From Kordiimonas aquimaris (GTDB lineage Bacteria; Pseudomonadota; Alphaproteobacteria; Sphingomonadales; Kordiimonadaceae): a stretch of DNA of 64,000 nucleotides. Position 1 is the stretch's first letter, and every line of letters begins with the position of its first letter. The translations under genes and the position numbers were made by a program. The notes below the pieces were generated by a model, which saw only the letters and a list, made by a program, of their open reading frames with translations, did no database searches and was not told the origin of the DNA. Positions 38,854 through 64,000 of the stretch are shown here, piece after piece. The stretch lies in NCBI RefSeq assembly GCF_025574485.1, contig NZ_JAOBPO010000004.1, forward strand, positions 124,001-188,000, in the 5' to 3' direction.

Positions 38854-39597
38854 ATGATTAATTCTCTTCGGGTGCGTCGAGTTTCGCTCAGTATCCACAA
38901 TTGGGTGGGGCTTATCATTGCCATTCAGTTTCTATTTTGGTGCGTGGGCGGCGTTATAATGAGCGTTATCCCAATTGAAGTTGTGCGCGGTGAGGTCAAC
39001 ATTGCGGATCGCAAAATGACACCATTGAGTAGTACTGAAGTGGCAAGAGTACTGGAGAAAGTTGGTGCTGTAGACCTGCAGCGTGTGTCTATTAAAGACT
39101 TGGCTGGTCAGGCGGCAATTGTGTTGGAACAAACCGACGGGATGAAGCGCCTTTATGACGCGAAAACGAGTGTGCTTTTAACACCTATCAATGAAATAAT
39201 GGCAACGCAAATTGCTGTATATGATTATCAGCATTCCTCCGCGAAAACGCATGTTCCTGTGGCTGTACTGTCGGCATATCTTCTAACAGAAGAGCCCGGT
39301 GATTTTCGCCGTAAATTACCAGTGTGGCAAATTACATTGGACGACCCTGATGGCACACGTATTTATGTATCACCGGATACTGGAGATGTGCTGGCGCGGC
39401 GTAATGATTACTGGCGCTTATACGATTTCTTCTGGATGCTACATATCATGGACTATGAAACACGTGATGATTTCAATAACCCACTAATCATTGTTGCCTC
39501 AATCACGGCATCCCTCTTTGTGATTAGCGGTGTTATACTGCTGTACTTCCGGTTCGGGCCTCAAGTACAGCGTATGCGAGCACGAAAAACTAATTAA
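38854..39597 (+). CDS. PepSY-associated membrane protein
   Basis: A 247-residue protein with an N-terminal membrane helix ([20 protein letters not shown], with the preceding HNWVG typical of PepSY-TM proteins) and a C-terminal helix ([21 protein letters not shown]). The periplasmic part between them contains PepSY-like stretches, for example [23 protein letters not shown] (position about residue 168-190), and the segment [13 protein letters not shown] often seen in these proteins. Related proteins are linked to ferric-siderophore reduction or serve as PepSY-type modulators. It stands alone after a terminator and its stop overlaps that of the convergent tdk gene by 4 bp. The function is not established. 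Confidence 0.83.
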
Positions 39598-40178
39598 GAC
39601 ACTGCATTTAGTTTTTCCATGAAGTGCTTGCGACACAGTGCAATGTAGCGGTCGTTACCACCGATTTCGATAGACGCACCTTCCTTTACGGCATTCCCAT
39701 TTGCGTCAATACGTAAATTCATGCTCGCTTTACTGCCGCATGTGCAAATAGTTTTCAGCTCCAACAATTCATCAGCAACGGCTAGTAGCCATTGGCTGCC
39801 TTCAAACAGGTTGGCCTGAAAGTCTGTCCGTAAGCCATAACATAAAACAGGCACACCGAGTTCATCAGCAACCGCAGCAAGCTGAAAAACATGATCGCGT
39901 GTGAGGAACTGGGCTTCATCAATCAAAACACAATTAACCGTGCGGTATTTTAGCTCGCTTTCAATAACTTCACGAAGGTTAATATCAGGTTCAAACAGGT
40001 GAGCTTCGGCTTCAAGGCCAATACGTGATGAAATCGTCCCGATTCCGTGCCTGTTATCAATGGCTGCAGTGAACAGCATGGTTGCCATGCCGCGCTCCTG
40101 ATAATTGAAGCTGGATTGAAGCAAGGTCGTTGTTTTACCTGCGTTCATTGCAGAATAGTAGAAATACAGCTTCGCCAT
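39594..40178 (-). CDS. tdk: Thymidine kinase (type II)
   Basis: A 194-residue enzyme that phosphorylates thymidine (and deoxyuridine) to the monophosphate. The P-loop region reads [18 protein letters not shown], strikingly like the E. coli enzyme (SAMNAGKSTALLQSS). [13 protein letters not shown] carries the Walker B Asp and the catalytic Glu region, [12 protein letters not shown] follows, and the zinc lasso has Cys in CTCGSKASM and CRKHF near the C-terminus. It is the only nucleoside kinase I see. It is divergent from the exported adenosine deaminase gene (116 bp apart) and marks the left border of the nucleoside island. It would recapture thymidine before DeoA degrades it. Confidence 0.96.
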
Positions 40179-41942: not shown

Positions 41943-43559
41943 ATGTCTGACAATAAAACACCAACAGCGTTTGCTGTTGCATCGCCTTCTTCACAAACGT
42001 CTGCAGATATTAATGCAGGGTTTGCATTTTTTCTGGATGCGGTGGTCAATATGTTTGTGCTGGCGGGTGTGCTTTTGGGGGCGTTTAGTTTCCCTTCAGA
42101 ATATGTATTTGGCCGTATCTTGCCGGGTGCTATTGTCGGAATCTTGTTTGGTAACATGGCCTATATCTGGTTTGCCAAACGTACGGCAAAAGAAATTGGA
42201 AATGACGCACTAACCAGTATCCCGCTTGGGATTGATCTCCCCACAATTTTTGGTATGTGCTTCTTCATTATCGGCCCGATTTATACTTTCAACCTGGAAG
42301 CTCTAGGCCCTGATGCTGCAGCGGAAAAGGCTTGGATCGTTGGTATGGCATGCACGCTATGGATGGCGCTTATTAAGTTTGGCCTGTCCTTCTTTGGTCG
42401 GGCAATGCAAACAGAATTGCCGCAAATGGCTCTCATTGGTGCGATGGCAGGTATTGCGACAGTATGGCTTGGTGCTGAAGCAATCTTTGGTATTTTTGAA
42501 TTGCCGGAAGTTGGTATTGTTTCCCTCATAATTATGGCCTTTGCTCTTATCGCAGGCCACAGATTACCGTTTAATATGCCCGGTGCGGTTATCGCAATTT
42601 TTGCAGGAACGGTATTTTACTACATTCTCGCTTATGCTGGTGCAGGCGAGAACTATGTAGTGAGAGAAGCACCTGAACTTATTGCTGCGCTGCCAAAACC
42701 TGCACTTGGTGGTTTGTTTGCTCTATTTGGGGATGCAACCAATTACTTGGGCATTGTGCTACCGTTTGCTTTGTTGATTGCGGCAAGCAGTGTCAATGTT
42801 GTGACGGGTGCGCGGGTTATTGGCGATAATTACGATGCGGGTAAAGTTGTACGTATTGATGCACTGACAACCGCTATAAGTGCTTTGTTTGGCGGTGTTG
42901 TGCAAACCACACCTTATTTTGGCCATGCGACATACAAACGTATGGGTGCCCGCACTAATTATGCCATTGGCGCTGTCAGTGTTATTGCTGTTGGTGGCTT
43001 TCTTGGTGTTATTGCGTTGGCATCGCAGATGATTCCTGCTGGCGTTTTGAAACCAATTCTGGTTGTTGTTGCGTGCGATATCATGCGACTTGCTTTTACA
43101 GGCGGAGATGTGCGCCACGCACCTGCGCTATTGTTTGCAATTGTGCCGGGTGTATTGAACTATACATACACAAAGGTTTCAGATCTTTACGGCAGGATTG
43201 ATAACACGGTTCAACAAGCGCTGGGAGCAGATTGGACAGCGGGTTACCACTTGCTTGGTGTGATGTCGCGAGGCTACATTTTAACCAGTATTATATGGGC
43301 AGCTTTGATTGTCTGGATTATTGACAAGCGGTTGGAACGTGCTGCATTCGCGGCTATCACCGCTGCAATATTCACTGAGTTTGGGTTAATCCACTCAGCA
43401 CTTCCATCAGCCGGTATGTATCTGCCGTGGGCTATTCCTGATCTTGGTGGTCTTGAGGTGCTGCCGCACCGGTTGGCTGCTGGATATTTAATTGCTGGTT
43501 TGTTGTTACTGGGTTTTGGGCGAATGAAAAATTTACCTGAGGCTGAAAACAAATCTTGA
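41943..43559 (+). CDS. NCS2-like (xanthine/uracil/vitamin C) permease family transporter
   Basis: A 538-residue inner membrane protein with about 13-14 hydrophobic segments. The ATG at 41943 has GGGGAG about 6 nt upstream; a longer frame from 41904 runs through the palindrome and is unlikely. Visible family-like elements are the N-terminal INAGFAFFLDAVVNMFVLAG, the ALTSIPLGIDLPTIFGM segment, a GARVIGDNYDAG loop and QTTPYFGHATYKRMGAR, which matches the PxTxYxxNxG-type region of the xanthine/uracil permease superfamily in position rather than residue by residue. Its place in the nucleoside island suggests import of nucleobases for Upp and the Hpt-like PRT. A hairpin with a U-run follows its stop. 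Specificity is inferred from context. Confidence 0.84.
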   Translation: MSDNKTPTAFAVASPSSQTSADINAGFAFFLDAVVNMFVLAGVLLGAFSFPSEYVFGRILPGAIVGILFGNMAYIWFAKRTAKEIGNDALTSIPLGIDLPTIFGMCFFIIGPIYTFNLEALGPDAAAEKAWIVGMACTLWMALIKFGLSFFGRAMQTELPQMALIGAMAGIATVWLGAEAIFGIFELPEVGIVSLIIMAFALIAGHRLPFNMPGAVIAIFAGTVFYYILAYAGAGENYVVREAPELIAALPKPALGGLFALFGDATNYLGIVLPFALLIAASSVNVVTGARVIGDNYDAGKVVRIDALTTAISALFGGVVQTTPYFGHATYKRMGARTNYAIGAVSVIAVGGFLGVIALASQMIPAGVLKPILVVVACDIMRLAFTGGDVRHAPALLFAIVPGVLNYTYTKVSDLYGRIDNTVQQALGADWTAGYHLLGVMSRGYILTSIIWAALIVWIIDKRLERAAFAAITAAIFTEFGLIHSALPSAGMYLPWAIPDLGGLEVLPHRLAAGYLIAGLLLLGFGRMKNLPEAENKS

Positions 43560-43571
43560 CCAAACAGTCAG
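43556..43571. promoter_or_regulatory. TTGAC-N6-GTCAG, one-mismatch copy of the island operator candidate
   Basis: The stretch AATCTTGAC-CAAACA-GTCAG lies at the end of the permease gene, 44 bp before deoC. It shares AATCTTGAC exactly with the sites at 52919 and 61743. Part of it encodes the last Ser and stop of the permease, so coding constraint could explain some of the match. Confidence 0.45.
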
Positions 43572-43614: not shown

Positions 43615-44571
43615 GTGACTGAGAATTTTGTAAATCAAGGAACCGCATTTCACGCTGATTGGCTGGATGGTATCCGGGTTAATAAAAGTGCGGTTGAGCG
43701 GCGTACGAATACGCTAGCTGGTCGCCGGGCTGTAAAAAAAGAAGCGCAGGTTGCCTTCATGTTGAAGGCGGTAAGTTGCATTGATCTGACAACCCTTGCT
43801 GGCGATGACACGCCGGGCCGTGTTCGCCGCCTTTGTGGTAAAGCTATGCATCCGGTACGTAGCGATGTCCTTGTTGCCTTTGGCGCGCAGGATATGCGTC
43901 TAACTACAGGCGCAGTTTGTGTTTACCATGAAATGGTCGAAGAGGCTGTGAAAGCACTTGGTAGCTCAGGGGTGCCTGTCGCGGCTGTTTCTACCGGGTT
44001 TCCAGCTGGTCTTGCACCAATGGAGACACGTCTTGAAGAAATTCGCCGTTCGGTTGCTGCCGGTGCTCGCGAGATAGATATTGTTGTGACGCGAGCTCAT
44101 GTACTTAACGGCAATTGGCAAGCACTTTACGATGAAGTTAAGGCCTTCAAGGAAGCTTGTGGCCACGCACACATGAAAACCATTCTGGCAACAGGTGAAC
44201 ATGGGAACCTGACACAGGTTGGTAAAGCGTCAATGACAGCCATGATGGCAGGCTCTGACTTCATCAAGACATCCACAGGGATGGAAGGTATCAATGCTAC
44301 ATTGCCGGTGTCCCTTGTGATGATCCGCCAGATCAGAGACTTTTATGAACGCACCGGTATCAAGGTGGGATACAAGCCAGCTGGTGGCATTAAAACTGCG
44401 AAGCAAGCTGTGTTATACTTGTCTCTTATCAAAGAAGAGTTGGGGCGTGCGTGGATGGAGCCGGAGTTATTTCGGTTTGGTGCATCCAGCTTGCTAGGCG
44501 ATCTGGAACGACAATTAGAATATCATGCAACAGGCGGCTATTCCGTCGCGTATCGGCATCCGATGGGCTAG
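43615..44571 (+). CDS. deoC: Deoxyribose-phosphate aldolase, long eukaryote-like type
   Basis: A 318-residue TIM-barrel aldolase that splits 2-deoxyribose-5-phosphate into glyceraldehyde-3-phosphate and acetaldehyde. It is longer than the roughly 220-260 residue bacterial DeoC and, as far as I remember the human sequence, has the same length and layout as animal DERA: AGRRAVKKEAQVAFMLKAV, IDLTTLAGDDTPGRVRRLC, VSTGFPAGLAPMETRLEEIR, the Schiff-base Lys in GSDFIKTSTG and the second Lys in VGYKPAGGIKT. The start is a GTG at 43615 with a weak GGGA site, directly behind a terminator-like hairpin. It is followed after 9 nt by the two-domain aldehyde dehydrogenase, which can remove the acetaldehyde. 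Confidence 0.96.
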   Translation: MTENFVNQGTAFHADWLDGIRVNKSAVERRTNTLAGRRAVKKEAQVAFMLKAVSCIDLTTLAGDDTPGRVRRLCGKAMHPVRSDVLVAFGAQDMRLTTGAVCVYHEMVEEAVKALGSSGVPVAAVSTGFPAGLAPMETRLEEIRRSVAAGAREIDIVVTRAHVLNGNWQALYDEVKAFKEACGHAHMKTILATGEHGNLTQVGKASMTAMMAGSDFIKTSTGMEGINATLPVSLVMIRQIRDFYERTGIKVGYKPAGGIKTAKQAVLYLSLIKEELGRAWMEPELFRFGASSLLGDLERQLEYHATGGYSVAYRHPMG

Positions 44572-50784: not shown

Positions 50785-51609
50785 CTAAGCGGCGATTTGC
50801 TCTACGAAAGCACGTAGCAGCTTTTCAAGGTTCACTGCAGCAATTGCACCGAATTCCATTGTCTCGTGATGCGTTAGCTCATCACCTGTCATACCTGCGG
50901 CATAATTGGTGATAGAACTTACACCGCATACGCGCATGCCAACATGGCGCGCGGTTAAGCACTCAGGCACCGTAGACATGCCTACAGCATTTGCGCCCAT
51001 TACACGAAAAGCCTGAATTTCGGCAGGTGTTTCGAAGTTAGGGCCCATTGCCATCAAATATGTACCTTTATGCAGTGGAAATCCGAGTTTATCAGCGCAT
51101 TTTTCGAAGGTACTTGTTAGTTCTTTATCCCAGGCATTGGTTACATCTGGAAACCGAGGGCCAAAGCGGTCGTCATTTACACCAACAAGAGGGTTAATGC
51201 CTGAGAAATTGATATGGTCTGTGATGGCCATCAAGCTGCCGGGGCCTGCGTCTTTCATGAGACTGCCTGCCGCGTTAGTAAGCACCAGAATTTCAACACC
51301 CAGTGCCCATAAAACGCGTGTGGAAAACGCAAGTTTTTCCGGTGAATTACCTTCATATGCATGTGCGCGGCCCTGCATACAAATAACGGGCTTTCCTTCC
51401 AGCGTGCCAATCAGCATGCGGCCAGCATGGCCCTCAACGGTTGGTTTGGGAAAACCTGGTAGATCAAGAAATGAAAATACCGTTGCGTTCTTAACTGCAT
51501 CAGCAAGGCTGTTCAATCCACTGCCCAATACCATTGCGATGCTTGGTATGTCGCCGTCAAAACGTTCTTTGATGTATGCTGCGCATGATTGTACATCTTT
51601 ATATGTCAT
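50785..51609 (-). CDS. Purine-nucleoside phosphorylase (trimeric PNP-I family)
   Basis: A 274-residue enzyme that splits inosine, guanosine and their deoxy forms with phosphate into base plus (deoxy)ribose-1-phosphate. Motifs: AMVLGSGLNSLAD (phosphate loop), VEGHAGRMLIG (His of the phosphate site), CMQGRAHAYEG (family GRxHxYEG), VLTNAAGSL, GPNFETPAEI with the base-site Glu, GANAVGMSTVPE and SITNYAAG, the Asn typical of 6-oxopurine specificity. AAGGGG lies upstream of the ATG. It is the third gene of the upp-PRT-PNP-MBL operon. With the exported adenosine deaminase producing inosine, a 6-oxopurine-specific PNP is just what is needed. A name such as punA would depend on orthology. Confidence 0.96.
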   Translation of the reverse strand: MTYKDVQSCAAYIKERFDGDIPSIAMVLGSGLNSLADAVKNATVFSFLDLPGFPKPTVEGHAGRMLIGTLEGKPVICMQGRAHAYEGNSPEKLAFSTRVLWALGVEILVLTNAAGSLMKDAGPGSLMAITDHINFSGINPLVGVNDDRFGPRFPDVTNAWDKELTSTFEKCADKLGFPLHKGTYLMAMGPNFETPAEIQAFRVMGANAVGMSTVPECLTARHVGMRVCGVSSITNYAAGMTGDELTHHETMEFGAIAAVNLEKLLRAFVEQIAA

Positions 51610-51650: not shown

Positions 51651-52205
51651 TTAAATTTCTATTTCCGGCAGGTCCAGATTTTTGTGCTTTTTGATTTCTT
51701 CACGTGACATATCAGACAATTCGTGTGGGAAGACCAACCAATCATCAGTTTCATGGCAATAGAAATCTGGCGCAAAATCAGTGACATTGCGTGTGGGTTT
51801 ATAGAAAACCGTAGCAATTTTGATGATTTCAGGCGTGTTTCGACGACATTTTGCCCGGATATGGTCAATTGTTGCTGCGATTGAGCGACCTGAATCGAAA
51901 ACATCATCAACTATTAACAAGCTGTCTTCAGCATTAATGTTGTTCACGATGTACTCTAAGCCATGAACCTTGACTTCTTTTTGCTGCTGCATGCCAACAT
52001 AGCTTGATGTACGGATTGCGATATGATCAGTATCTACGCCGTAATAGTCGAGGATTTCCTGAACAGCGATGCCGGTTGGTGTGCCGCCGCGCCATACACC
52101 AACGATGAACTTGGGGCGAAATCCGCTTTTAAGGATCTGAATACCTAGATCAAACGAATCATCCAGGAGTTCTTGCGCTGTTACATATTTCTTTTCAACG
52201 GACAT
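51651..52205 (-). CDS. Purine-type phosphoribosyltransferase (Hpt-like)
   Basis: A 184-residue type I phosphoribosyltransferase. The PRPP-binding motif is SLLIVDDVFDSGRSIAATI; VGVWRGGTPTGIAVQE forms the pyrophosphate loop, and the C-terminal DDWLVFPHELSD resembles the VFPWE segment of xanthine-guanine and hypoxanthine PRTs. The flexible loop region holds IRTSSYVGMQQQKEV. It most likely makes IMP or GMP/XMP from the bases released by the adjacent purine-nucleoside phosphorylase. It begins 5 nt after the upp stop, with AAGGG as ribosome site, and is followed 41 nt later by the PNP gene. Assignment as hypoxanthine versus xanthine-guanine PRT is open. Confidence 0.9.
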   Translation of the reverse strand: MSVEKKYVTAQELLDDSFDLGIQILKSGFRPKFIVGVWRGGTPTGIAVQEILDYYGVDTDHIAIRTSSYVGMQQQKEVKVHGLEYIVNNINAEDSLLIVDDVFDSGRSIAATIDHIRAKCRRNTPEIIKIATVFYKPTRNVTDFAPDFYCHETDDWLVFPHELSDMSREEIKKHKNLDLPEIEI

Positions 52206-52918: not shown

Positions 52919-52934
52919 TTGACTAGTTTGTCAA
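52919..52934. promoter_or_regulatory. TTGAC-N6-GTCAA palindrome in the upp/BMP divergent promoter region
   Basis: TTGACTAGTTTGTCAA is a perfect 5-6-5 inverted repeat 69 bp before upp and 104 bp before the BMP gene. It is flanked by AATC on the left and AAA on the right, as is the copy at 61743-61758. I infer a regulator-binding site controlling both divergent operons. Confidence 0.65.
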
Positions 52935-53038
52935 AAATGGTTGACCGTTGATGTCTGCTCTGGTTCCCTTGCGCCCGCACCCCTATTCGATGCATAAGAG
53001 AGCATAGGCATTTTTACGCCATTGAGGAGTATAAATTA

Positions 53039-54040
53039 GTGAAACTTTCGATAAGCAAAATATTAGCTGTATTTGTATCTTTAATTGCTTACGCAAGTGC
53101 TGCCACTGCGCAAGACTTCAAGCCAGTACTGCTCTATGATATTGGCGGAAAATTTGACAAATCCTTTAACGAGGCTGCTTACCGCGGTGTTGAACGGTTT
53201 AACCAGGAAACGGGTATTGCGTTTCGGGATTTTGAGCCAAATAGCGAAACACAATACGAACAGGCATTGAAGCGATTCGCACGCCGCAAGGCGGATATCA
53301 TTGTAGCCGTCGGTGTTGGATACTCTGTTGCTGTGCGTAATGCTGCGCAGCGTTTCCCGGATATCAAATTTACTATCATTGACGGTATTGTGGACCTGCC
53401 GAACGTGCAGTCGATCACTTTCAAAGAAAACGAAGGATCGTTTTTGGTTGGAATGATTGCTGGAATGACAACTAAAACCGGTAAGGTTGGCTTTATTGGT
53501 GGTATGGACATTCCACTTATTCGTCGCTTTCAGGCGGGGTACCAGCAAGGGGTAACCTTTACAAACGCAGATGTTGATTTCATTGAAAATTATGTTGGAA
53601 CAACACCTGCAGCGTGGAATGACCCTATTAAGGCTGCCGAAATGGCGAAGTCTCAATATGCGCGCGGCGTTGATGTTATCTTCTCTGCTGCAGGCCCCTC
53701 TGGTCTTGGCGTTATTAATGCCGCAAAAGATGACGGCAAACTGGCAATCGGTGTTGATAGTAATCAGAACCATGTACAGCCCGGGTCGGTGCTGACCAGC
53801 ATGCTAAAACGCGTTGATCTTGCTGTATATCAAGCGATGCAGGAAGCCAGAGATGGCACATGGGCACCGGGCCACCGTATACTTGGTTTACCTGAAGGCG
53901 GTGTTGACTATGCTCTTGATGAGCACAATGCGTCACTCATCACTGACGAGATGAAAGCGCGACTTGATGATGCGCGTGCCAAGATTATCGCAGGTGAGAT
54001 CATTGTTTCAGATGTTGCGGGTAGTAACGCGGGGCATTAA
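53039..54040 (+). CDS. BMP-family nucleoside-binding protein of an ABC importer
   Basis: A 333-residue periplasmic binding protein. The start is a GTG at 53039 with GAGGAG 9 nt upstream, followed by a signal peptide (ISKILAVFVSLIAYASAATAQ). The mature start LLYDIGGKFDKSFNEAAYRG is the family signature of BmpA/Med-type basic membrane proteins (D-xG-x-FDxSFNxAAxxG), which bind purine or pyrimidine nucleosides. SAAGPSGLGVI and IGVDSNQNHVQPGSVLTSM form the second-lobe contacts. No lipobox is seen, so it is a soluble periplasmic protein. It heads the eight-gene plus-strand operon that runs through the ABC transporter to cdd, deoA, deoB and the nuclease. Confidence 0.95.
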   Translation: MKLSISKILAVFVSLIAYASAATAQDFKPVLLYDIGGKFDKSFNEAAYRGVERFNQETGIAFRDFEPNSETQYEQALKRFARRKADIIVAVGVGYSVAVRNAAQRFPDIKFTIIDGIVDLPNVQSITFKENEGSFLVGMIAGMTTKTGKVGFIGGMDIPLIRRFQAGYQQGVTFTNADVDFIENYVGTTPAAWNDPIKAAEMAKSQYARGVDVIFSAAGPSGLGVINAAKDDGKLAIGVDSNQNHVQPGSVLTSMLKRVDLAVYQAMQEARDGTWAPGHRILGLPEGGVDYALDEHNASLITDEMKARLDDARAKIIAGEIIVSDVAGSNAGH

Positions 54041-54078
54041 GCATTCGCGTTGACGATAACGGAAGTATAGAGACTGAC

Positions 54079-55632
54079 ATGAAGCCAGCAATTGAGACGC
54101 GAGAGATATCAAAACGTTTCGGCGCTGTGCAAGCGAATGACCAGATATCTCTGGTCGTTGATAAGGGGTCTGTTCACGGCATTGTTGGTGAAAATGGTGC
54201 TGGAAAATCTACCCTTCTGAAGATGTTGTTTGGTTTTTATACACCAAATAGCGGCGATATTTTAGTTGATGGTGAGCATTGCAGGTTTTCCAATCCTACC
54301 GATGCAATGAGTGCTGGCATCGCAATGGTGCACCAACATTTTATGCTGGTTGAACCTTTCACGGTATTAGAAAACATTATTCTTGGTGCTGAAGGTGCAG
54401 GCTTGCTTAAACGTGCGTGCGCCGAAGCATCAGTAAAAATCAAAAAGTTAGAAGAAGAGTTTGGTTTTAATCTGCCTTTAGATACACCTGTGTCACATCT
54501 TTCTGTCGGCGAACGACAACGCGTTGAAATACTTAAGGCATTATACCGCGGTGCGGAAACGTTGATCCTTGATGAACCAACGGCTGTGTTAACGCCTCAG
54601 GAATGTGATCAGCTTTTTGCGCTGATTAATGTGCTGAAGAGTCAGGGCAAAACGGTGTTGTTTGTAACGCACAAATTGCATGAAATTATTGCTGTTACGG
54701 ATGCTGTAACCGTTATCCGTGGTGGTAAAGTGATCACGCGTATGGCGACGAGTGAAACCACGCCTGATCAACTGGCAGAGGCAATGGTTGGTGCGAAAAT
54801 CACGCGTGCTGTGGAAGCAGAAGATAGGGGCGGAGCAGCGCAGGCACGCCTGAGGCTTACCAATGTTTGTGCTTTGTCGGATATGGGTCATGCTGCGCTG
54901 GATAGTATCAGCTTTGAACTATACGACGGTGAAGTATTAGGTGTTGCGGGCGTTGCGGGTAACGGTCAGACAGAACTTCTGGAAGTATTATCCGGTATGC
55001 GCCGTGTCACTGATGGTGAAGTTACCATTTCAGGAAAAGTAACGAATACATCGGATCATATGTATGATCCAATAATGTTACGTGACATGGGCTTGGCGCA
55101 CATCGCAGAAGACCGTTTAAAAACTGGCGTTGTATCAAGCATGACTGGTAGGGAAAATGCGGTCCTGGGCTATCAAAGGACAAATGATTTCAGTAAAGGC
55201 GGGCTACTCAAGCTAAATGCAATAGCTGATGCCGCTGATACTTACTATGAAACGCAGGATGTAAGACCACGTGATCCGGATTTGCCGCTGGAGGCCCTGT
55301 CAGGAGGTAATCAACAAAAGTTGGTGATTGCACGCGAAATTGCGCGTGACCCTGAGATTATGGTTATAGGGCAGCCAACGCGGGGTGTCGATATTGGCGC
55401 CGTTACAAAAATACATGACCAAATCATAGCTCTTCGTAATCAAGGCAAAGCTTTATTGGTTGTCTCGGCTGATTTGGATGAATTAATGGTGGTGAGTGAC
55501 CGTATAGCGGTGATGTGTGATGGGAAATTAGCAGGGATTGTTCCTGTTGATCAAGCAGATGAACGCACACTTGGCCTGATGATGGCCGGAGATGCCAGTA
55601 CTGCTGAACAGCAAACTCAGGCGTCCGTGTAA
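54079..55632 (+). CDS. Nucleoside ABC importer, duplicated ATP-binding subunit
   Basis: A 517-residue ATPase with two nucleotide-binding domains. Domain 1: Walker A GENGAGKSTLLKML, signature LSVGERQRVEILKAL, Walker B ETLILDEPTAVLT and His in VTHKLHE. Domain 2: the degenerate Walker A GVAGNGQTELLEVLSG, signature LSGGNQQKLVIAREI and IMVIGQPTRGVDIGA. This is the arrangement of sugar/nucleoside (CUT2/BMP-type) ATPases, where the second site is less active. It starts 38 nt after the binding protein gene and its stop overlaps the ATG of the first permease (TAATG). It powers nucleoside uptake. Confidence 0.96.
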   Translation: MKPAIETREISKRFGAVQANDQISLVVDKGSVHGIVGENGAGKSTLLKMLFGFYTPNSGDILVDGEHCRFSNPTDAMSAGIAMVHQHFMLVEPFTVLENIILGAEGAGLLKRACAEASVKIKKLEEEFGFNLPLDTPVSHLSVGERQRVEILKALYRGAETLILDEPTAVLTPQECDQLFALINVLKSQGKTVLFVTHKLHEIIAVTDAVTVIRGGKVITRMATSETTPDQLAEAMVGAKITRAVEAEDRGGAAQARLRLTNVCALSDMGHAALDSISFELYDGEVLGVAGVAGNGQTELLEVLSGMRRVTDGEVTISGKVTNTSDHMYDPIMLRDMGLAHIAEDRLKTGVVSSMTGRENAVLGYQRTNDFSKGGLLKLNAIADAADTYYETQDVRPRDPDLPLEALSGGNQQKLVIAREIARDPEIMVIGQPTRGVDIGAVTKIHDQIIALRNQGKALLVVSADLDELMVVSDRIAVMCDGKLAGIVPVDQADERTLGLMMAGDASTAEQQTQASV

Positions 55633-56738
55633 TGAATGCTGCACCTAAAATATCAGGGGTTGTTTCCGCGATTGTATTGCCGCTAATTAACCTTGTTGTG
55701 GCACTGTTGCTATCTGGTTTTGTGGTGTGGTTAATCGGTGAAGATCCTGTTGCTGCGCTTGGTTTTCTTATCGAAGGTGCTTTTGGTTATGAAGAAGCAA
55801 TCGGATATACCTTCTATTATGCTACGAACTTTATCTTCACAGGCCTCGCCGTATCTGTCGCGTTTCATGCTGGCCATTTCAACATTGGCGGTGAAGGACA
55901 AGCAATGCTTGGTGGGCTCGGGCTTACACTCGCCGTGTTTTGGTTGGGTGATGTATCGCCCCTGCTTGCTATCATTGGGGCGATTGTAGGTGCCGCACTT
56001 TTTGGTGCCGGGTGGGCCTATATTCCTGCAGTATTACAAGCTAAGCGCGGCAGTCATATTGTTATAACGACGATCATGTTCAACTTTATCGCTTCAGCAT
56101 TGTTGGCTTATTTGTTGGTGGGGCCATTACAACGGCCTGGTGGTCAAATGCCTGAAAGCAGTGATTATCCAGATGGTATAGCCCTAACGAAGGCTGATGA
56201 ATTACTTGAGTTGGTCGGTATCAGTTTTGAACAAAGTCCACTGAATGTTTCGTTTCTAATAGCTTTATTTGCGGCATTCGCTGTTTGGTTTTTATTGCGC
56301 CGGACGCGATTTGGTTACGAAATGCGTGTGGTTGGCCAAAACGCGGAAGCAGCAAAATACGCGGGAATTTCAGTGCCGAAAGTAACCGTTATAGCCCTTA
56401 TGTTGTCTGGCGCTCTTGCAGGCATGATGGGGTTGAATGAATTACTGGGTGAGCAATTGCGGCTGATTGGTAATTTTACTCTTGGCTATGGTTTCGTTGG
56501 TATTGCTGTGGCGTTTATGGGGCGTAACCATCCTTTTGGTATTGTGCTCGCCGCCATATTGTTTGGTGCAATTTATCAAGGCGGTGCAGAGCTTGGCTTT
56601 GAGATGAGCAAAATCACACGAGACATGAGTGTTGTAATTCAAGGCTTGGTCATCCTGTTCGCCGGCGCGATGCCGCACTTGTTCAAACGACCTATTGATG
56701 CATTGTCAGCGCGGTTTAAAACGCGAGGTAATGTGTGA
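55632..56738 (+). CDS. Nucleoside ABC importer permease 1
   Basis: A 368-residue inner membrane protein with about 10 hydrophobic helices. The GHFNIGGEGQAMLGGLG segment is the conserved FNIGxEGQ motif of BMP-associated permeases (BPD_transp_2 family), and RTRFGYEMRVVGQNAEAAKYAGI is the cytoplasmic coupling loop that meets the ATPase. It overlaps the ATPase gene by 1 nt and the second permease gene by 1 nt, so all are translated as a unit. With permease 2 it forms the heterodimeric channel. Confidence 0.95.
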   Translation: MNAAPKISGVVSAIVLPLINLVVALLLSGFVVWLIGEDPVAALGFLIEGAFGYEEAIGYTFYYATNFIFTGLAVSVAFHAGHFNIGGEGQAMLGGLGLTLAVFWLGDVSPLLAIIGAIVGAALFGAGWAYIPAVLQAKRGSHIVITTIMFNFIASALLAYLLVGPLQRPGGQMPESSDYPDGIALTKADELLELVGISFEQSPLNVSFLIALFAAFAVWFLLRRTRFGYEMRVVGQNAEAAKYAGISVPKVTVIALMLSGALAGMMGLNELLGEQLRLIGNFTLGYGFVGIAVAFMGRNHPFGIVLAAILFGAIYQGGAELGFEMSKITRDMSVVIQGLVILFAGAMPHLFKRPIDALSARFKTRGNV

Positions 56739-57709
56739 TGGAGTTCCTCACTGACCTTGTCTTGCTTTCGAATTCTACGCTGCGTGTAGCAACGCCGTTA
56801 TTACTTGCTGCTTTGGCGGGACTATGTTCCGAGCGCGCGGGAATTGTCGATATTGGCCTTGAGGGTAAAATGCTGGCGGCTGCATTTGCTGCTGCAAGCG
56901 CTGCTGCTGTAACCGGCTCACCATGGGCCGGGTTGCTGGCGGGCATAATGGCATCTGTACTGTTGGCGCTTATTCATGGGTATGTTTCCATCAACCAGCG
57001 TGGCAATCAGATTGTATCAGGTATGGCAATTAACATTCTTGTGGCAGGGCTTGCACCAACACTAGCAAATGCCTGGTTTTCCAGGGGTGGCCAAACACCG
57101 TTGCTGGGAAATGAGGCACGCTTTACCGAAATTACATTACCGCTTGCGGATACATTAAGCTCGGTGCCAGTAATCGGTGATGTATATAGTAATGTATTAT
57201 CCGGTCACTCTATGCTGACATATGTAGCCTTTGCGTCCGTACCTGTGGTGGCGTGGGTACTATATAAAACACGTTTTGGCTTGCGTTTGCGTGCTGTTGG
57301 TGAAAACCCGGAGGCTGTCGAAACAGCCGGTATTTCAGTTGTTCTGTTACGGTATCAAGCCATGATAATTGCGGGTATTTTATGCGGTATTGCGGGCAGT
57401 TCTTTGTCCACAGCTCTTGGAGCTGGGTTCATACGAGACATGTCTGCTGGCAAAGGGTATCTCGCGTTGGCTGCGATGATTTTTGGCCGCTGGAAGCCCG
57501 TACCAACGCTGCTGGCTTGCCTCTTGTTTGCTTTTGTTGATGCGCTTCAAGGACGATTGCAAGGTGTTGAGTTGCCGCTTATCGGTGAAATTCCTGTACA
57601 GTTTACCATTATGTTGCCGTACATTCTTACAGTAGTGATTTTAGCTGGATTTGCAGGTAAAATGGATGCGCCGAAAGCCAGCGGCATTCCTTATGAAAAG
57701 AATCGATGA
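56738..57709 (+). CDS. Nucleoside ABC importer permease 2
   Basis: A 323-residue inner membrane protein with about 8-9 hydrophobic helices. The ATG at 56738 overlaps the previous TGA and has GAGGTAA upstream; a GTG 3 nt earlier is less likely. SERAGIVDIGLEGKMLAAAF is the ExxGxxNIGLEG-type motif of the second permease of this system, and KTRFGLRLRAVGENPEAVETAGI is its coupling loop. It pairs with permease 1. The cytidine deaminase gene begins 1 nt after its stop, so uptake and the first catabolic step are transcribed together. Confidence 0.95.
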   Translation: MEFLTDLVLLSNSTLRVATPLLLAALAGLCSERAGIVDIGLEGKMLAAAFAAASAAAVTGSPWAGLLAGIMASVLLALIHGYVSINQRGNQIVSGMAINILVAGLAPTLANAWFSRGGQTPLLGNEARFTEITLPLADTLSSVPVIGDVYSNVLSGHSMLTYVAFASVPVVAWVLYKTRFGLRLRAVGENPEAVETAGISVVLLRYQAMIIAGILCGIAGSSLSTALGAGFIRDMSAGKGYLALAAMIFGRWKPVPTLLACLLFAFVDALQGRLQGVELPLIGEIPVQFTIMLPYILTVVILAGFAGKMDAPKASGIPYEKNR

Positions 57710-57710
57710 C

Positions 57711-58142
57711 ATGAAACAGGATCAGTTGATTGCAGCAGCGATTGAAGCAAGAGCGAAAGCTTATGCACCGTACTCTAATCATCCAGTTGGTGTGGCACTG
57801 CTTGCTGATGACGGCAACATATATAGCGGCTGTAACGTTGAAAACGCTGCGTACCCACTCGGGTTTTGTGGTGAACCAAACGCCATTGGTAATATGATTA
57901 TGGGGGGCGGTAAAACCATCCGGCATTTGGTGGTCGCAGGCCCGGGGTATCATGTGTGTACACCGTGTGGGGGCTGCCGGCAGCAATTGCGTGAATTTAC
58001 AGGTGCGGACGATATTAGGATAACGGTTTGCGATGTAACCGGCGCAATTGTGAGCGAAACAACTTTGTCGGCTTTGTTGCCGCATTCATTTGCTCCGGAA
58101 AATGTAGCTGAAGTATCGAGTATGGAAAGTAATAAGTCATGA
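57711..58142 (+). CDS. cdd: Cytidine deaminase
   Basis: A 143-residue homotetramer-type cytidine deaminase that converts (deoxy)cytidine to (deoxy)uridine. The ATG at 57711 gives MKQDQLIAAAIEARAKAYAP, the usual N-terminal helix; longer frames overlap the permease. The zinc site is GFCGEPNAI (Cys ligand and catalytic Glu; most enzymes have CAER here, so CGEP is unusual) and PCGGCRQQL (family PCGACRQ). GCNVENAAYPLGFCGE supplies the nucleoside contacts. It lies between the permease and deoA genes; its stop overlaps deoA by 4 nt. The key residues are present, so activity is expected. Confidence 0.94.
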   Translation: MKQDQLIAAAIEARAKAYAPYSNHPVGVALLADDGNIYSGCNVENAAYPLGFCGEPNAIGNMIMGGGKTIRHLVVAGPGYHVCTPCGGCRQQLREFTGADDIRITVCDVTGAIVSETTLSALLPHSFAPENVAEVSSMESNKS

Positions 58143-59482
58143 GTATGGGTGCTTTTATACCGCAAGAAATTATACGCCAGAAGCGTGACGGCCAGACAGT
58201 CAGCGATGCTGATATCGAACGATTTGTTGCAGGCATCACTAGCGGTGAAGTTGCCGATGCGCAAATCTCAGCTTTTGCTATGGCTGTGTTTTTCAATGGT
58301 ATGTCAGCAGAGGAGGGTGCTGCCCTCACGCTTGCGATGCGCGATTCCGGGGATGTGATGAATTGGCAATCGCTTGGCTTTGACGCAGGTGCACCGATTG
58401 TTGATAAACATTCTACAGGCGGTGTGGGTGACAAGGTAAGCTTGATGCTTGCGCCGATTGTTGCAGCGTGTGGTGGTTTGGTGCCGATGATTTCAGGTCG
58501 CGGGCTTGGTCATACAGGTGGCACGTTGGATAAGTTTGAAGCGATAGAAGGCTACGACCCATATCCCAGCATTGATAGGTTCGCGGAGATTGTCAGAACA
58601 ATTGGTTGCTCCATTATTGGCCAAACGGGGGAACTAGCACCTGCTGACAAGCGCTTTTACGGCGTGCGGGATGTCACGGCGACTGTAGAATCAATACCAC
58701 TGATTACTGCCTCTATTTTGTCCAAAAAGCTTTCGGCTGGATTGGGGTCATTGGTGATGGATGTAAAGTTCGGAACCGGCGCATTCATGCCGAACTATGC
58801 AGCATCCAAGGAATTGGCTGAAAACATTGTGCGGGTAGCCTGTGCGGCGGGCACGCCTACTCGGGCACTGTTAACTGATATGAACCAAGTTTTAGGGCGA
58901 ACAGCTGGTAATGCAGTTGAAGTTGTTGAGGCAATTGAATTCCTTGTAAATCCTGCTACTGCCGATGCACGTTTGATGGAAGTAACGCTAGCGCTGGCAG
59001 CGCATATGTTGGTGATAGCGGGCATTGAGTACAGTGTTGAGATAGCTACAGAAAAAGCGCGGCAGTCCCTTGCTTCAGGGAAAGCGGCGGAATTGTTTGA
59101 GCAGATGGTGACCGCGCAAGGCGGAACACCAAATATTCTGTCAAACTATCAAGCAACGCTGAAAGTCGCGGCGAAAGCATATGCCATTAAACCAAAACAA
59201 GCTGGAATAGTGACTGGCATGGATACACGCAGCATTGGAATGGCGGTTGTTGCGATGAAGGGTGGGCGTATCGACCCGAAAGCATCCATTGATCATAGCG
59301 TCGGGTTCACCGATATATGCCAGATTGGTGATAAAGTTGATGCGGATGCACCTTTGGCAATTGTGCGTTGCCATTCTGATGAGCAAGCACGTGAGGCCAT
59401 AAAGGCGGTTCAGTCGGCAGTTGTTGTCGCTGATATAAAAGAGGCACCTTTGCCTGTTATTTCTGAAGTGATTGAAGGTTAA
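58139..59482 (+). CDS. deoA: Thymidine phosphorylase
   Basis: A 447-residue enzyme that splits thymidine and deoxyuridine with phosphate to base and 2-deoxyribose-1-phosphate. The family signature is intact: AFAMAVFFNGMSAEE, DKHSTGGVGDKVSLMLAP (phosphate and base loop), MISGRGLGHTGGTLDKFEAI, and the substrate segment VRDVTATVESIPLITASILSKK. Length matches the proteobacterial enzyme (about 440). It overlaps cdd by 4 nt and is followed 3 nt later by deoB, the enzyme using its product. Together with upp it splits deoxyuridine into usable parts. Confidence 0.97.
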   Translation: MSMGAFIPQEIIRQKRDGQTVSDADIERFVAGITSGEVADAQISAFAMAVFFNGMSAEEGAALTLAMRDSGDVMNWQSLGFDAGAPIVDKHSTGGVGDKVSLMLAPIVAACGGLVPMISGRGLGHTGGTLDKFEAIEGYDPYPSIDRFAEIVRTIGCSIIGQTGELAPADKRFYGVRDVTATVESIPLITASILSKKLSAGLGSLVMDVKFGTGAFMPNYAASKELAENIVRVACAAGTPTRALLTDMNQVLGRTAGNAVEVVEAIEFLVNPATADARLMEVTLALAAHMLVIAGIEYSVEIATEKARQSLASGKAAELFEQMVTAQGGTPNILSNYQATLKVAAKAYAIKPKQAGIVTGMDTRSIGMAVVAMKGGRIDPKASIDHSVGFTDICQIGDKVDADAPLAIVRCHSDEQAREAIKAVQSAVVVADIKEAPLPVISEVIEG

Positions 59483-59485
59483 GTT

Positions 59486-60703
59486 ATGGCGCGTGCATTT
59501 ATAATGGTTCTGGACAGTTTCGGTATAGGCGCAGCTCCGGACGCTGAAAAGTTTGGCGACGTTGGCTCTGATACATTTGGTCATATTGCGGAATGGTGTG
59601 CTGCTGGCAATACTGCCGAAGACCGTCCAAATGCTGGTCCGATTAATGTGCCTAATATGGTGAAACTTGGTCTTGGTAAAGCAGCTGAGATTGCAACGGG
59701 AAAAGTTCATGCTGGAACTGAATATGACGGTCAGGTTAGCGGCTTTTATGCTGCATGTGCTGAGCGATCGTATGGTAAAGACACACCTTCCGGTCATTGG
59801 GAGATGGCAGGTCTACCAGTTGAATATGATTGGGGTTATTTCCCAGCAGAATTTCCGAGTTTTCCGGACGATTTAATAGCCAAACTGATCAAAAAAACCG
59901 GCATTCCCGGCGTTATTGGTAACAAAGCCGCTTCTGGCACCGTGATTTTGGATGAATTAGGTGCAGAGCATGTGCGCAACGGTATGCCGATTGTATATAC
60001 ATCAGCGGACAGTGTTTTTCAGATTGCTGCGCACGAAGAACATTTTGGGTTAGAGCGCTTGTATGAGGTTTGTGAAGCCGCACGTGTTTTGGTTGATGAC
60101 TATAATATCGGGCGTGTGATTGCCCGGCCGTTTGTTGGTGATGAAGGTGATTATGCCAGAACCGGAAATCGCCGTGATTATGCGACACCACCGCACGAAG
60201 AAACATTGTTAGACAAGCTAAAAGCAGCGGGTCGGGAAGTTATATCTGTTGGCAAAATTGCTGATATTTTCGCACATAGTGGATTAACCAAAAAAGTTAA
60301 AGCCAACGGTTTGGATGGATTGTTTGACTTAAGTTTGAAAATGCAAAACGAAGCCGAGGATGGCTCGCTTACGTTTATCAACTTTGTTGATTTTGACCAA
60401 ACATATGGTCATCGCCGTAATGTGGCGGGATATGCAGCTGCATTGGAATATTTCGATGCACGCCTTCCTGAGTTTACAGATAAAATGCGTGACGATGATG
60501 TTGTTATATTAACGGCAGATCATGGCTGTGACCCGACTTGGCCCGGCAGTGATCATACACGCGAACATGTACCATTTGTTGCATATGGCCCGTCATTTAA
60601 GGTTGGTAGTGGCGGCGTACGTAAAAGCTTTGCTGATATTGGGCAAACGGTTGCAAGTCATTTGGGAATCGCTCCTCTGAGTGAAGGCGAAAGCGTAATT
60701 TAA
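59486..60703 (+). CDS. deoB: Phosphopentomutase
   Basis: A 405-residue alkaline-phosphatase-superfamily enzyme that converts (deoxy)ribose-1-phosphate to the 5-phosphate. Signatures: the N-terminal [19 protein letters not shown] (metal Asp and start of the family), [12 protein letters not shown] with the phosphorylated Thr, [35 protein letters not shown], and [13 protein letters not shown] with [19 protein letters not shown] (metal ligands). It links DeoA and PNP to DeoC. Spacing of 3 nt from deoA supports a polycistronic unit. The S1/P1 nuclease gene follows after 52 nt. Confidence 0.97.
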
Positions 60704-60755
60704 AGTACGTCAATTCAAGAAACTTTCGGGGTTTCATTTAACAAGGAAATTCATC

Positions 60756-61532
60756 GTGCGGAAATTTGCATTTCTATTATTCGCTGTCACATTGGCTACA
60801 AGCAACGTAAGCGCATACGGCCCAACAGGGCACCGTGTCATTGCGGAGTTGGCATCATTGCACCTAACACCAGAAGCACGGGCAGCAGTTGAGCGCATTC
60901 TTGGTGACGAGTTTATGGCTGAGGCTTCCACCATGCCTGATGAAATGCGTTCCAACCCGGATGAATTTTGGCAGCGAGAAGCTGGCCCATACCATTATAT
61001 TAATGTTTCGCCAGGGCAAACATACGAAGAAAGTGAGAAAAATCCGGCAGGAGATGCACTCACGGCCCTTGAGAAATTTACTGCAGTTTTGAAAGATGAT
61101 GCTGCCAGTGTAGAAGACAAGCGCCGTGCTATCTGGTTTGTGATTCATATCGTTGGAGATTTGCATCAGCCGCTTCATGTCGGCCATCCGGAAGATCGGG
61201 GCGGTAACCGGGTTGATGTTGTTTGGATGGAAGAGCTAACAAATCTACACCGTGTTTGGGACGAGCATATTATTGATCATCGTGATTTGTCTTTTACGGA
61301 ATGGACCCGCTTTCTCAATCGCAAGATCAAACCTGAAATGATCACTAGGTGGCAAGAAGCCAAGCCGATTGACTGGGTGCATGAAGATATTGTTCTGCGT
61401 GATGACATCTACGCAAATAGCCATGGTATCCTGTCATGGGATTATGCCTACAAATATATGCCGCTGATTAAAAGCCAATTGTCAAAGGGCGGTGTGCGTT
61501 TAGCTGGTTATCTCAACGAAGTTTTTAAATAG
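60756..61532 (+). CDS. Exported S1/P1-type nuclease
   Basis: A 258-residue zinc nuclease/3'-nucleotidase. The GTG start has AAGGA 9 nt upstream, followed by a signal peptide (FAFLLFAVTLATSNVSA). The trinuclear zinc site is recognisable: GHRVIAELA near the mature start, PYHYINV, VHIVGDLHQPLHVG, DRGGNRVDV and NLHRVWDEHII. In the characterised enzymes the first mature residue is Trp, whose main chain binds zinc; here predicted cleavage after VSA leaves Tyr21. It should degrade single-stranded DNA/RNA or 3'-nucleotides in the periplasm or medium, feeding the importer encoded upstream. A weak hairpin follows its stop. Confidence 0.92.
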   Translation: MRKFAFLLFAVTLATSNVSAYGPTGHRVIAELASLHLTPEARAAVERILGDEFMAEASTMPDEMRSNPDEFWQREAGPYHYINVSPGQTYEESEKNPAGDALTALEKFTAVLKDDAASVEDKRRAIWFVIHIVGDLHQPLHVGHPEDRGGNRVDVVWMEELTNLHRVWDEHIIDHRDLSFTEWTRFLNRKIKPEMITRWQEAKPIDWVHEDIVLRDDIYANSHGILSWDYAYKYMPLIKSQLSKGGVRLAGYLNEVFK

Positions 61533-61547
61533 ATTGGCGTGTGAGCT

Positions 61548-61568
61548 AGGCTAACCATAGCCTTTCTC
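61548..61568 (+). terminator. Weak hairpin after the nuclease gene
   Basis: AGGCTA-ACCA-TAGCCT forms a 6-bp stem followed by TTCTC, about 16 nt after the nuclease stop. The U-run is poor. Confidence 0.4.
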
Positions 61569-61742
61569 AACTATAGTTCGATTTTGCGTCGATTCGGGCG
61601 GATTTAGCTAGATAATGCGAATTTTGATGCGTGCACACATACATGTGGCATGTTGATGTATTCCTTGAGCGGCAACTATGTCGCATTTTGGCAACAGTTT
61701 AGAACTTGATGTGCCCAGAACTGATCATTGGTTTAACGAATC

Positions 61743-61758
61743 TTGACACTTTCGTCAA
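61743..61758. promoter_or_regulatory. TTGAC-N6-GTCAA palindrome, distal copy before the TonB receptor
   Basis: TTGACACTTTCGTCAA is a perfect 5-6-5 repeat whose flanks (AATC left, AAA right) match the copy at 52919. It ends 210 bp before the receptor start. Confidence 0.62.
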
Positions 61759-61825
61759 AAAACTGAAATGAAACGCTCCTAGAAGGGTGCGACACACCAG
61801 CTTTTGTGCCGGTTTCTGGATGGAC

Positions 61826-61841
61826 TTGACCTTTGGGTCAA
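61826..61841. promoter_or_regulatory. TTGAC-N6-GTCAA palindrome, proximal copy before the TonB receptor
   Basis: TTGACCTTTGGGTCAA, extended by one more pair (C left, G right), lies 127 bp before the receptor start and 83 bp centre to centre from the distal copy, close to eight helical turns. Confidence 0.62.
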
Positions 61842-61968: not shown

Positions 61969-64000
61969 ATGAATCGCCTATTTAGAACGACGCTATGCAG
62001 TAGTGTAGCGCTTGCTGCTATGGCAGCATCCGTGCCAGCAATATCGCAAGAAATTACAACATCCATCCGTGGTACAGTGACAACACCAGCAGGTAATCCT
62101 GCAAGTGGTTATGCTGTGGTTGTAACTGACACGCGTACTGGTGCTCGCCAAACAACGACAACAAATGCTAGTGGTAACTTCAGTGTTCGCTCATTGACAG
62201 TTGGTGGCCCATACACAATTCGTGTAAGCGGTGGCCAATATGAAGATATCCTGGTTACAGACGTTAGTACGTCTCTTGGTAATACAGCAAGTTTCAACCT
62301 TGCTCTATCTGATGCGCAATCAGGTATTGAGGAAATCGTTGTTGTTGCTTCTGCAGCGTCTATCACAAACCTTGCGATTGGCCCTGGTACATCGTTCAAC
62401 CTGACTGATATTGAAGCTGTTCCATCTGTTAGCCGTCAAATTCGTGACGTTATCCGTATTGATCCACGCGTAAACATTGACCGTGGTAGCGGGGGACAAG
62501 GTTTTGGTATTTCATGTCTTGGTGGCAGTAACCGGGTTAACTCTTTCACAATTGACGGTGTGCGTGCAGCAGACCCATTTGGTTTGAATTCATCTGGTAA
62601 CCTGGCGCGTAATACATTCCCAATTCCATTCGACACGATTGCTGCAACATCTGTTGAGTTCTCGCCTGTTGATGTTGAATATGGTCAGTTCACCGGTTGT
62701 AACATTAACGTTGTTACAAAATCCGGTACGAACGACTTCACGGGTTCTGCATTCTTCCTATACACTGGTGATAACTTCACGGGTGACCAGATTGAAGACA
62801 CCACTATTGCCTCTGACTTCAATAACTATAACTGGGGCGCTGAACTTGGTGGCCCGATTATCGAAGACAAATTGTTCTTCTATGGTTCATATGAAGAAAC
62901 AAGCTCTGGCGGCATTCAGGATGAAGGCCCAATTGGTGGTGGTTTTGCAAACGAAAGCGGCGTAACTGTTGCTGAAGCAGAACGTATTCGTAACATCTTG
63001 ATCAATAGCTATGGTCGTGATCCGGGCGGTATCATTCGTACATTGCCACAAACGAGCCGTCGTTTCTTCGGTCGTTTGGATTGGCAGATCAATGATCAGC
63101 ACCGTCTGGAAGCGTCATACTCACGCCTTGAAGAAAATGCACTACTTGGTGATGATATTAGCAGTGGCCGCGGTGAGTTTACGTTCGAAGACAACTTCCA
63201 GGATCGTGGTTCTGTTTCTGACACGTATGCGGTTCGCTTGTTCTCAAACTGGACAGATAACTTCTCGACTGAAATTCGCGCATCTCGTAACACAGTTGGT
63301 GATATTCAAAGTCCAACACTTGGTGGTGAAGCACAAGAAGCTAATCCAATTCCAAGGATTGCTATTGGACCATTCGGCAACGAATTCTTTGGTCAGGACT
63401 TTGCTTCTGGCCCGGGTGTTTTCCGTAGTGCGAACCAACTAGATACTGAAGTTGATCAGATCAAGCTGAAAGCTGACTATGTAACGGGTAACCACACTAT
63501 CACTGCTGGTTACGAGCTTGATAGCCTTGACGTGTTTAACCTGTTCATTATCAACGCAACAGGCACAATCCTGTTTGATGATATTGATGCACTTGAAGCT
63601 GGTTTGGCCCGTGAAATTACTGGCAATGGTTCTTTCACCGGTAATGCTGCTGATGGGGCTGCTGAATTTTCTCGTGATATCCACTCTATCTATTTACAAG
63701 ACGAGTGGCAGGCAACAGACAGCTTAAACATTGTTGCTGGTCTGCGTTACGATTTCTATAAATCAAGCGATAGCCCAATCAATAACCCAGTGTTCCAAAA
63801 CCGTTTCGGTTTTGCCAATACGCAAGCATTCGATGGTTTGGATGTGTTCCAGCCACGCATCGGCTTCAGCTGGGAATTGCCTGAAAACTTTGGTGATACA
63901 TCGATAACTGGTGGCTTTGCTCGCTTCTCAGGTGGTGATCCAACAGTTTGGTTTGCGAACTCATTCCAGAACTTTGGCGGTGCCATTGGTTTTGGTAATG
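61969..64000 (+). CDS. TonB-dependent outer membrane receptor with N-terminal carboxypeptidase-regulatory-like domain, C-terminus outside window
   Basis: The frame is open from the ATG at 61969 (GGAG 7 nt upstream) to the window edge: 677 residues. After the signal peptide (TTLCSSVALAAMAASVPAISQ) comes a CarboxypepD_reg-like domain (SIRGTVTTPAGNPASGY, residues about 25-110), then a TonB-box-like stretch EEIVVVAS, a plug (IRDVIRIDPRVNID, NSFTIDGVRAADPFGL, VEYGQFTGCNINVVTKSG) and the beginning of the barrel (AELGGPIIEDKLFFYGSYEE, YLQDEWQATDSLNIVAGLRYD). Two Cys, in ISCLGG and FTGCNI, may pair. This is the OAR-like receptor group. Its place behind the nuclease gene and its two copies of the shared palindrome suggest uptake of nucleic acid products, but the cargo is unproven. 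Confidence 0.93.
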   Translation, partial: MNRLFRTTLCSSVALAAMAASVPAISQEITTSIRGTVTTPAGNPASGYAVVVTDTRTGARQTTTTNASGNFSVRSLTVGGPYTIRVSGGQYEDILVTDVSTSLGNTASFNLALSDAQSGIEEIVVVASAASITNLAIGPGTSFNLTDIEAVPSVSRQIRDVIRIDPRVNIDRGSGGQGFGISCLGGSNRVNSFTIDGVRAADPFGLNSSGNLARNTFPIPFDTIAATSVEFSPVDVEYGQFTGCNINVVTKSGTNDFTGSAFFLYTGDNFTGDQIEDTTIASDFNNYNWGAELGGPIIEDKLFFYGSYEETSSGGIQDEGPIGGGFANESGVTVAEAERIRNILINSYGRDPGGIIRTLPQTSRRFFGRLDWQINDQHRLEASYSRLEENALLGDDISSGRGEFTFEDNFQDRGSVSDTYAVRLFSNWTDNFSTEIRASRNTVGDIQSPTLGGEAQEANPIPRIAIGPFGNEFFGQDFASGPGVFRSANQLDTEVDQIKLKADYVTGNHTITAGYELDSLDVFNLFIINATGTILFDDIDALEAGLAREITGNGSFTGNAADGAAEFSRDIHSIYLQDEWQATDSLNIVAGLRYDFYKSSDSPINNPVFQNRFGFANTQAFDGLDVFQPRIGFSWELPENFGDTSITGGFARFSGGDPTVWFANSFQNFGGAIGFGN

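Follow-up and report, generated by a model that had tools for sequence, protein, structure and literature searches.

A conserved palindrome at nucleoside-scavenging promoters of Kordiimonas is a probable operator of a RutR-like regulator encoded beside a TonB-dependent receptor

We analysed a 64,000-nucleotide stretch of the Kordiimonas aquimaris genome (assembly GCF_025574485.1, contig NZ_JAOBPO010000004.1, positions 124,001 to 188,000), hereafter the window, whose genes can be read as a line that starts with an S1/P1 nuclease and a TonB-dependent receptor, continues with a BMP/ABC importer and ends in cytidine deaminase, thymidine phosphorylase, phosphopentomutase and deoC. On the other side of a divergent pair of operons lie upp, a phosphoribosyltransferase gene and a purine-nucleoside phosphorylase gene. 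A 16-bp palindrome, TTGAC-N6-GTCAA, stands before deoC, between the divergent upp and BMP operons, and twice before the receptor. We propose that a RutR-like TetR-family regulator, whose gene lies directly 3' of the receptor gene, probably uses this palindrome as its operator and would thereby repress nucleoside scavenging until uracil releases it. The putative operators and the genes are listed below in window numbering, with matching family models and their scores.

43556..43571, + strand: putative operator before deoC, TTGACCAAACAGTCAG; one mismatch; site start 59 bp 5' of the deoC GTG
43615..44571, + strand: deoC, deoxyribose-phosphate aldolase; TIGR00126, 138.3 bits, above cut-off
50785..51609, - strand: purine-nucleoside phosphorylase; NF006054, 351.7 bits, above cut-off
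51651..52205, - strand: phosphoribosyltransferase domain protein; PF00156
52211..52849, - strand: upp, uracil phosphoribosyltransferase; TIGR01091, 261.8 bits, above cut-off
52919..52934, + strand: putative operator between the divergent upp and BMP operons, TTGACTAGTTTGTCAA; exact copy
52941..52971, + strand: conserved block 3' of the putative upp/BMP operator, TTGACC + GCTCTGGTTCCCTTG; from the genus alignment
53039..54040, + strand: BMP/PnrA-type substrate-binding protein of an ABC transporter; PF02608, 215.9 bits
54079..57709, + strand: ABC ATPase and two permeases of the BMP transporter; PF00005, and PF02653 twice
57651..58142, + strand: cytidine deaminase; TIGR01354, 129.3 bits, above cut-off
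58139..59482, + strand: deoA, thymidine phosphorylase; TIGR02643, 600.1 bits, above cut-off
59486..60703, + strand: deoB, phosphopentomutase; TIGR01696, 516.1 bits, above cut-off
60756..61532, + strand: S1/P1 nuclease; PF02265, 187 bits
61743..61758, + strand: putative distal operator of the TonB receptor, TTGACACTTTCGTCAA; exact copy; kept upstream of receptors
61826..61841, - strand: putative proximal operator of the TonB receptor; exact copy; AATC flank read on the other strand; distance to the distal operator, 83 bp
61969..64000, continuing to 65295, + strand: TonB-dependent receptor with a carboxypeptidase-regulatory-like N-terminus; PF13620, PF25183, PF00593
65467-66114 (C21:189467-190114): RutR-like TetR-family regulator, 215 amino acids; directly after the receptor

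A pattern search of the window returned three exact copies of TTGAC-N6-GTCAA (52919-52934, 61743-61758 and 61826-61841) and no fourth, together with the one-mismatch copy before deoC (43556-43571), all as reported in an earlier note on this DNA. Measured against 100 dinucleotide shuffles, the three exact copies compare with 0.08 expected, a value with which the earlier estimate of about 0.06 copies per 64 kb agrees, and none of the 100 shuffles reached three. The AATC flank that the note had described precedes the copies at 52919, 61743 and 43556; it also accompanies the 61826 copy on the other strand, so that the two receptor copies face each other as an inverted repeat. An additional one-mismatch copy, at 3887-3902, lies within an open reading frame (ORF).

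The earlier note held the site to be common to the nucleoside operons, deoC and the receptor, and took its absence from orthologous promoters as a reason to abandon that view. We ran this check in 19 Kordiimonas genomes, source genome included, counting sites at up to one mismatch, and found the sites conserved in the genus. Upstream of BMP all 19 genomes have the site in the same columns of the alignment (12 exact, seven with one mismatch), with 12 different spacers and mostly within AATC(T/C)TGAC-N6-GTCAAAAATGGTTGACC. It is likewise present upstream of deoC in 19 of 19 (nine exact; 17 in the form TTGACCnnnnGGTCA), and at least one site precedes the receptor in all 18 genomes examined, G007, whose receptor runs into a contig end, being left out. 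Fourteen of these 18 receptor promoters hold two or more sites, spaced 79-83 bp apart except for a third site in G008, and the receptors of G001, G005, G011 and G012 are only 39-43% identical to the window receptor, yet carry the site pair. Second copies of the receptor family in the genus also have the site in all five genomes for which upstreams were fetched (a sixth copy, in G015, is cut). The reversed pattern, searched as a control at the same mismatch level, is absent from the tabulated BMP and receptor upstreams and occurs once, exactly, upstream of deoC in G002. Conservation is concentrated in the arm columns: equally high values were reached at 7 of 248 offsets for the BMP site, 2 of 148 for deoC and 2 of 288 for the distal receptor site (14 receptor promoters were used), and mean arm conservation is 0.88-0.96 versus region means of 0.61-0.71. 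Judging from these alignments, we regard the predicted operator at upp/BMP, deoC and the receptor as real.

In a genome-wide motif search, also suggested in the earlier note, the exact pattern occurs 13 times in the 3.81-Mb source genome versus six times for the reversed control, but this enrichment is only about twofold, and the bare ten-base pattern is unspecific by itself. By ORF reading only, six of the 13 copies lie inside likely genes, three are those in the window, three are at promoters adjoining other regulator genes (two TetR-like, one GntR/FCD-like; classes assigned by eye) and one is unclear. Conservation and flanks must therefore bear the argument. A 24-position profile built from 38 sites placed the four sites of the window at the top of the genome, with 17.7-18.8 bits versus 15.5 for the next distinct place, and a profile without the window 24-mers, built from 34 sites that all come from related genomes, again ranked them first (15.8-18.4 bits); each profile search scored 150 of about 2,100 first-look candidates.

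Two other strong matches were rejected as targets. Upstream of purF (site at C20:100940), 17 of 18 other genus genomes have no site at up to one mismatch; G002 has a perfect copy, at another position, and the purF upstream of G009 could not be placed owing to a contig cut. A site before another TonB receptor (C11:224060) is absent from all 13 related upstreams examined; of the 20 loci fetched, 14 were analysed, the one with the site included. Since neither site is kept in relatives, both are probably chance matches. Separately, two other TetR-like genes (L001:1501-1560; L009:1480-1516) adjoin paired, similar TTGAC/GTCAA palindromes, so these arm sequences are common to several operators of the source genome. 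An exact TTGACCTTTTGGTCAA lies at G000:C20:664035-664050, with a GntR/FCD-like regulator gene on one side and an aminotransferase-like gene on the other (classes again by eye); this site could be a further target, or the GntR/FCD-like regulator's own site.

The earlier note saw no LacI, DeoR or GntR gene in the window and supposed that the regulator is encoded elsewhere. Indeed, none was found among the 53 window ORFs scanned (of the 71 ORFs of at least 120 amino acids, Pfam was used for 52 and NCBIfam for one, and the remaining 18 overlap these). On the domain scans we rejected LacI, DeoR and GntR as the regulator type; the neighbouring regulator is of TetR type. This RutR-like candidate does lie outside the window, but it is not distant: the gene begins about 1.5 kb beyond the window end, and in the source genome a G+C-rich hairpin and a T run separate it from the end of the receptor gene. 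The RutR family model detected a single strong RutR-like gene per genome in 19 of 19 genus genomes, in 18 of them 1.3-1.6 kb from the receptor match and at the receptor's end. Two genomes of the same family, G020 and G027, have no BMP match, yet in each of them the regulator is close to the receptor and the two sites are present. The protein combines TetR_N (PF00440, 55.3 bits) with a YcdC-like TetR_C_3 domain (PF08362, 145.8 bits), and among solved structures it matches E. coli RutR best (E 1.7e-39, residues 21-207, gap-free). An excerpt of PMC10891134 gives W77, Y97, W167, Q171 and Q179 as the uracil contacts of E. coli RutR; the Kordiimonas regulator has all five at the same numbers, and these residues and K52 are invariant in 16 aligned relatives.

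The palindrome also accompanies related regulators. Among the best 80 of at least 557 confirmed relatives, it was found within 500 bp 5' of the regulator gene in 52, and the reversed control in none. In 51 of the 80, the flanks fetched around the regulator contain a preT match, whereas they contain the receptor only in four Kordiimonas/Kordiimonadales loci; deoA is in the flanks also in Leeia oryzae and two Burkholderia loci. In the genus, preT is strongly matched in 10 of 19 genomes, with no match in the source genome at E 1e-40. The palindrome, at up to one mismatch, is present at 16 of 19 preT promoters examined across the genus and the order, including all ten in the genus, and in G042 and G052 a perfect palindrome separates preT from a divergently oriented RutR-like gene. 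The preT product has no curated NCBIfam match above cut-off, its best matches being glutamate-synthase-type; we named it by solved-structure matches to dihydropyrimidine dehydrogenase subunit A (4ylf) and to animal dihydropyrimidine dehydrogenase, and by the presence of preA beside it. In both operons checked, G006 and G052, preA adjoins preT (667.9 and 700.8 bits versus a cut-off of 335); the G006 operon continues with matches to omega-aminotransferase AptA and methylmalonate-semialdehyde dehydrogenase models, and that of G052 with a hydantoinase/carbamoylase-family amidase and an NCS1 nucleobase transporter. In the betaproteobacterium Leeia oryzae (L271:9254-20539), upp directly precedes a RutR-like gene and a BMP/ABC/deo cluster is nearby, which is a second association of a RutR-like gene with nucleoside genes; the protein, at 179.9 bits, is likewise below the RutR cut-off, and this palindrome is not found before upp.

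Several observations weigh against assigning the palindrome to the RutR-like regulator as its operator. At the one-mismatch level the five copies in the window are unexceptional (shuffle mean 2.2; 6 of 100 shuffles reach five), the proximal receptor site is not singled out by column conservation (16 of 288 offsets equally high), and the purF site, at 15.5 bits, is merely 0.3 below the upp/BMP site in the reduced profile. The regulator scores below both curated RutR cut-offs (176.6 bits versus 368 for the TIGR03613 equivalog, and 156.4 versus 230), and the TIGR03613 cut-off is exceeded in 0 of 31 and 0 of 19 genomes searched; we therefore call the protein RutR-like and do not file it as RutR. 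Regulator and receptor adjoin in 18 rather than 19 of 19 genomes, G007 having the two on different contigs. Unlike in most relatives, no site at up to one mismatch precedes the regulator's own gene (65467), nor does one precede it in any of the four Kordiimonas/Kordiimonadales loci. These four are among the 28 of 80 relatives that lack a site before the regulator, as are all 17 of the relatives from Betaproteobacteria; given the latter, we regard the motif as an alphaproteobacterial form. The preT promoters of G026, G050 and G054 lack the palindrome, and outside the genus the receptors of G042, G052, G050 and G054 have no site at up to one mismatch despite the presence of a RutR-like gene. Related receptors from five family genomes without a RutR-like gene (E 1e-20) have the site in 0 of 5, which favours the link to the regulator, but these receptors are only 41-42% identical. 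Lastly, E. coli has one-mismatch copies of the pattern between rutA and rutR and 277 bp before carA, the control region of which contains a RUT box according to an excerpt of PMC6245113; these copies are rightly placed, but by count neither is beyond chance.

On the mechanism that we propose, a ligand-free dimer of the regulator would bind the 16-bp site. At the upp and BMP operons, at deoC and at the receptor, this site lies on or directly against the likely -35 region, and the bound dimer would most likely repress these genes. In the upp/BMP alignment a conserved TTGACC follows the putative operator by 6 bp and is a possible -35 element, while at deoC and the receptor the -35 could be the first palindrome arm. 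Such positions speak for repression, and do not prove it. Conservation in the genus is strong, too, in the adjoining GCTCTGGTTCCCTTG at 52957-52971, 3' of the putative upp/BMP operator. Phosphorolysis of pyrimidine nucleosides yields uracil, and a uracil-released repressor would therefore give substrate induction: uracil from imported, phosphorolysed pyrimidine nucleosides would bind the regulator and release it from DNA. Uptake through the outer membrane and by the ABC transporter, the phosphorolysis of nucleosides, the breakdown of deoxyribose phosphate and the salvage of uracil would then be turned on jointly. Binding by the regulator, repression, uracil as the ligand and the cargo of the receptor are what we infer from the sequences compared here.

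We considered three alternatives to uracil-released repression by the RutR-like protein. The same regulator and operators might serve another effector, such as thymine, a nucleoside or deoxyribose phosphate, or might activate rather than repress. The regulator's membership of a diverged group below the RutR cut-offs would fit this, as would its nucleoside-gene targets and the activation of carAB P1 by RutR in E. coli, stated in an excerpt of PMC6245113; nonetheless, all five named uracil-contact residues are kept, and the sole RutR-like gene in each genome of the genus evidently acts at preT as well, and hence on uracil breakdown, in relatives, such that we consider another effector or activation unlikely, if still worth keeping in mind. 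We think it very improbable that the sites are bound by a regulator of another family encoded elsewhere (LacI, DeoR, GntR or another TetR protein), with the RutR-like gene a bystander. Exact copies of the pattern do adjoin other regulator genes in the source genome, but the palindrome accompanies RutR-type genes across Alphaproteobacteria, both before the regulator (52 of 80) and before preT, and the RutR-like gene adjoins the receptor in 18 of 19 genus genomes. Finally, TTGAC is the -35 consensus, and at a divergent pair such as upp/BMP facing -35 boxes might form a palindrome by chance, with no operator involved. The deoC and receptor promoters are not divergent, yet both arms are kept there at constant spacing, and we give a chance origin almost no credence.

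The RutR-like protein is thus likely a regulator of a familiar kind whose target set has changed and which lacks a site for self-regulation, and its predicted regulon is likely of RutR type, extended to nucleoside scavenging. More tentatively, and with slightly less than even confidence, we suggest that in Kordiimonas a RutR-type uracil sensor may command a whole nucleic-acid scavenging line, comprising the nuclease, a TonB receptor importing nucleosides or oligonucleotides through the outer membrane, the ABC importer, the phosphorylases, uracil salvage and, in some species, preT-preA, and that the nucleoside part persists where neither rutA nor a strong preT match is found, as in the source species. 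Assignment of the site provides a TonB-dependent receptor that would otherwise be anonymous with a likely regulator, a likely signal and a class of cargo, makes nucleoside import through such a receptor directly testable, and illustrates how a catabolic sensor may retain its operator and probable ligand while its target set shifts.

Elsewhere in the window, a thymidine kinase gene (39594-40178) adjoins an adenosine deaminase-like gene (40295-41842), both upstream of the deoC group, and the window search found no palindrome at up to one mismatch between them. A different TetR-domain gene (33435-34223) has glutathione S-transferase genes around it, and 20351-21067 encodes a Nudix protein that carries an NrtR-type winged helix.

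The published consensus of the E. coli RutR box is TTGACCAnnTGGTCAA. Like E. coli RutR (b1013), the Kordiimonas regulator has TetR_N and YcdC-type C-terminal domains and the uracil-contact residues, and its predicted target promoters carry a 16-bp palindromic box. Unlike those of E. coli RutR, the Kordiimonas sites are at genes for nucleoside uptake and phosphorolysis, upp, deoC and a TonB receptor, and the regulator is below the RutR model cut-offs and has no site at its own promoter; moreover, a search at E 1e-20 that recovered the E. coli positive control detected no rutA in any of the 19 genus genomes. In RegPrecise regulons of Proteobacteria, RutR is a pyrimidine-catabolism regulator of mosaic distribution with taxon-specific motif changes, according to an excerpt of PMC5343134; pyrimidine catabolism is the role named there, and nucleoside targets may already be in the database lists. 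A literature search of titles and abstract openings found no report of RutR control of a TonB receptor, and PMC9736018 contains the words RutR, TonB-dependent receptor and uracil. A close parallel is the preT-preA system of G042 and G052, where a perfect palindrome is likewise tied to a RutR-like gene, but where the regulator sits at a dihydropyrimidine dehydrogenase operon rather than, as in Kordiimonas, beside a receptor and a deo cluster.

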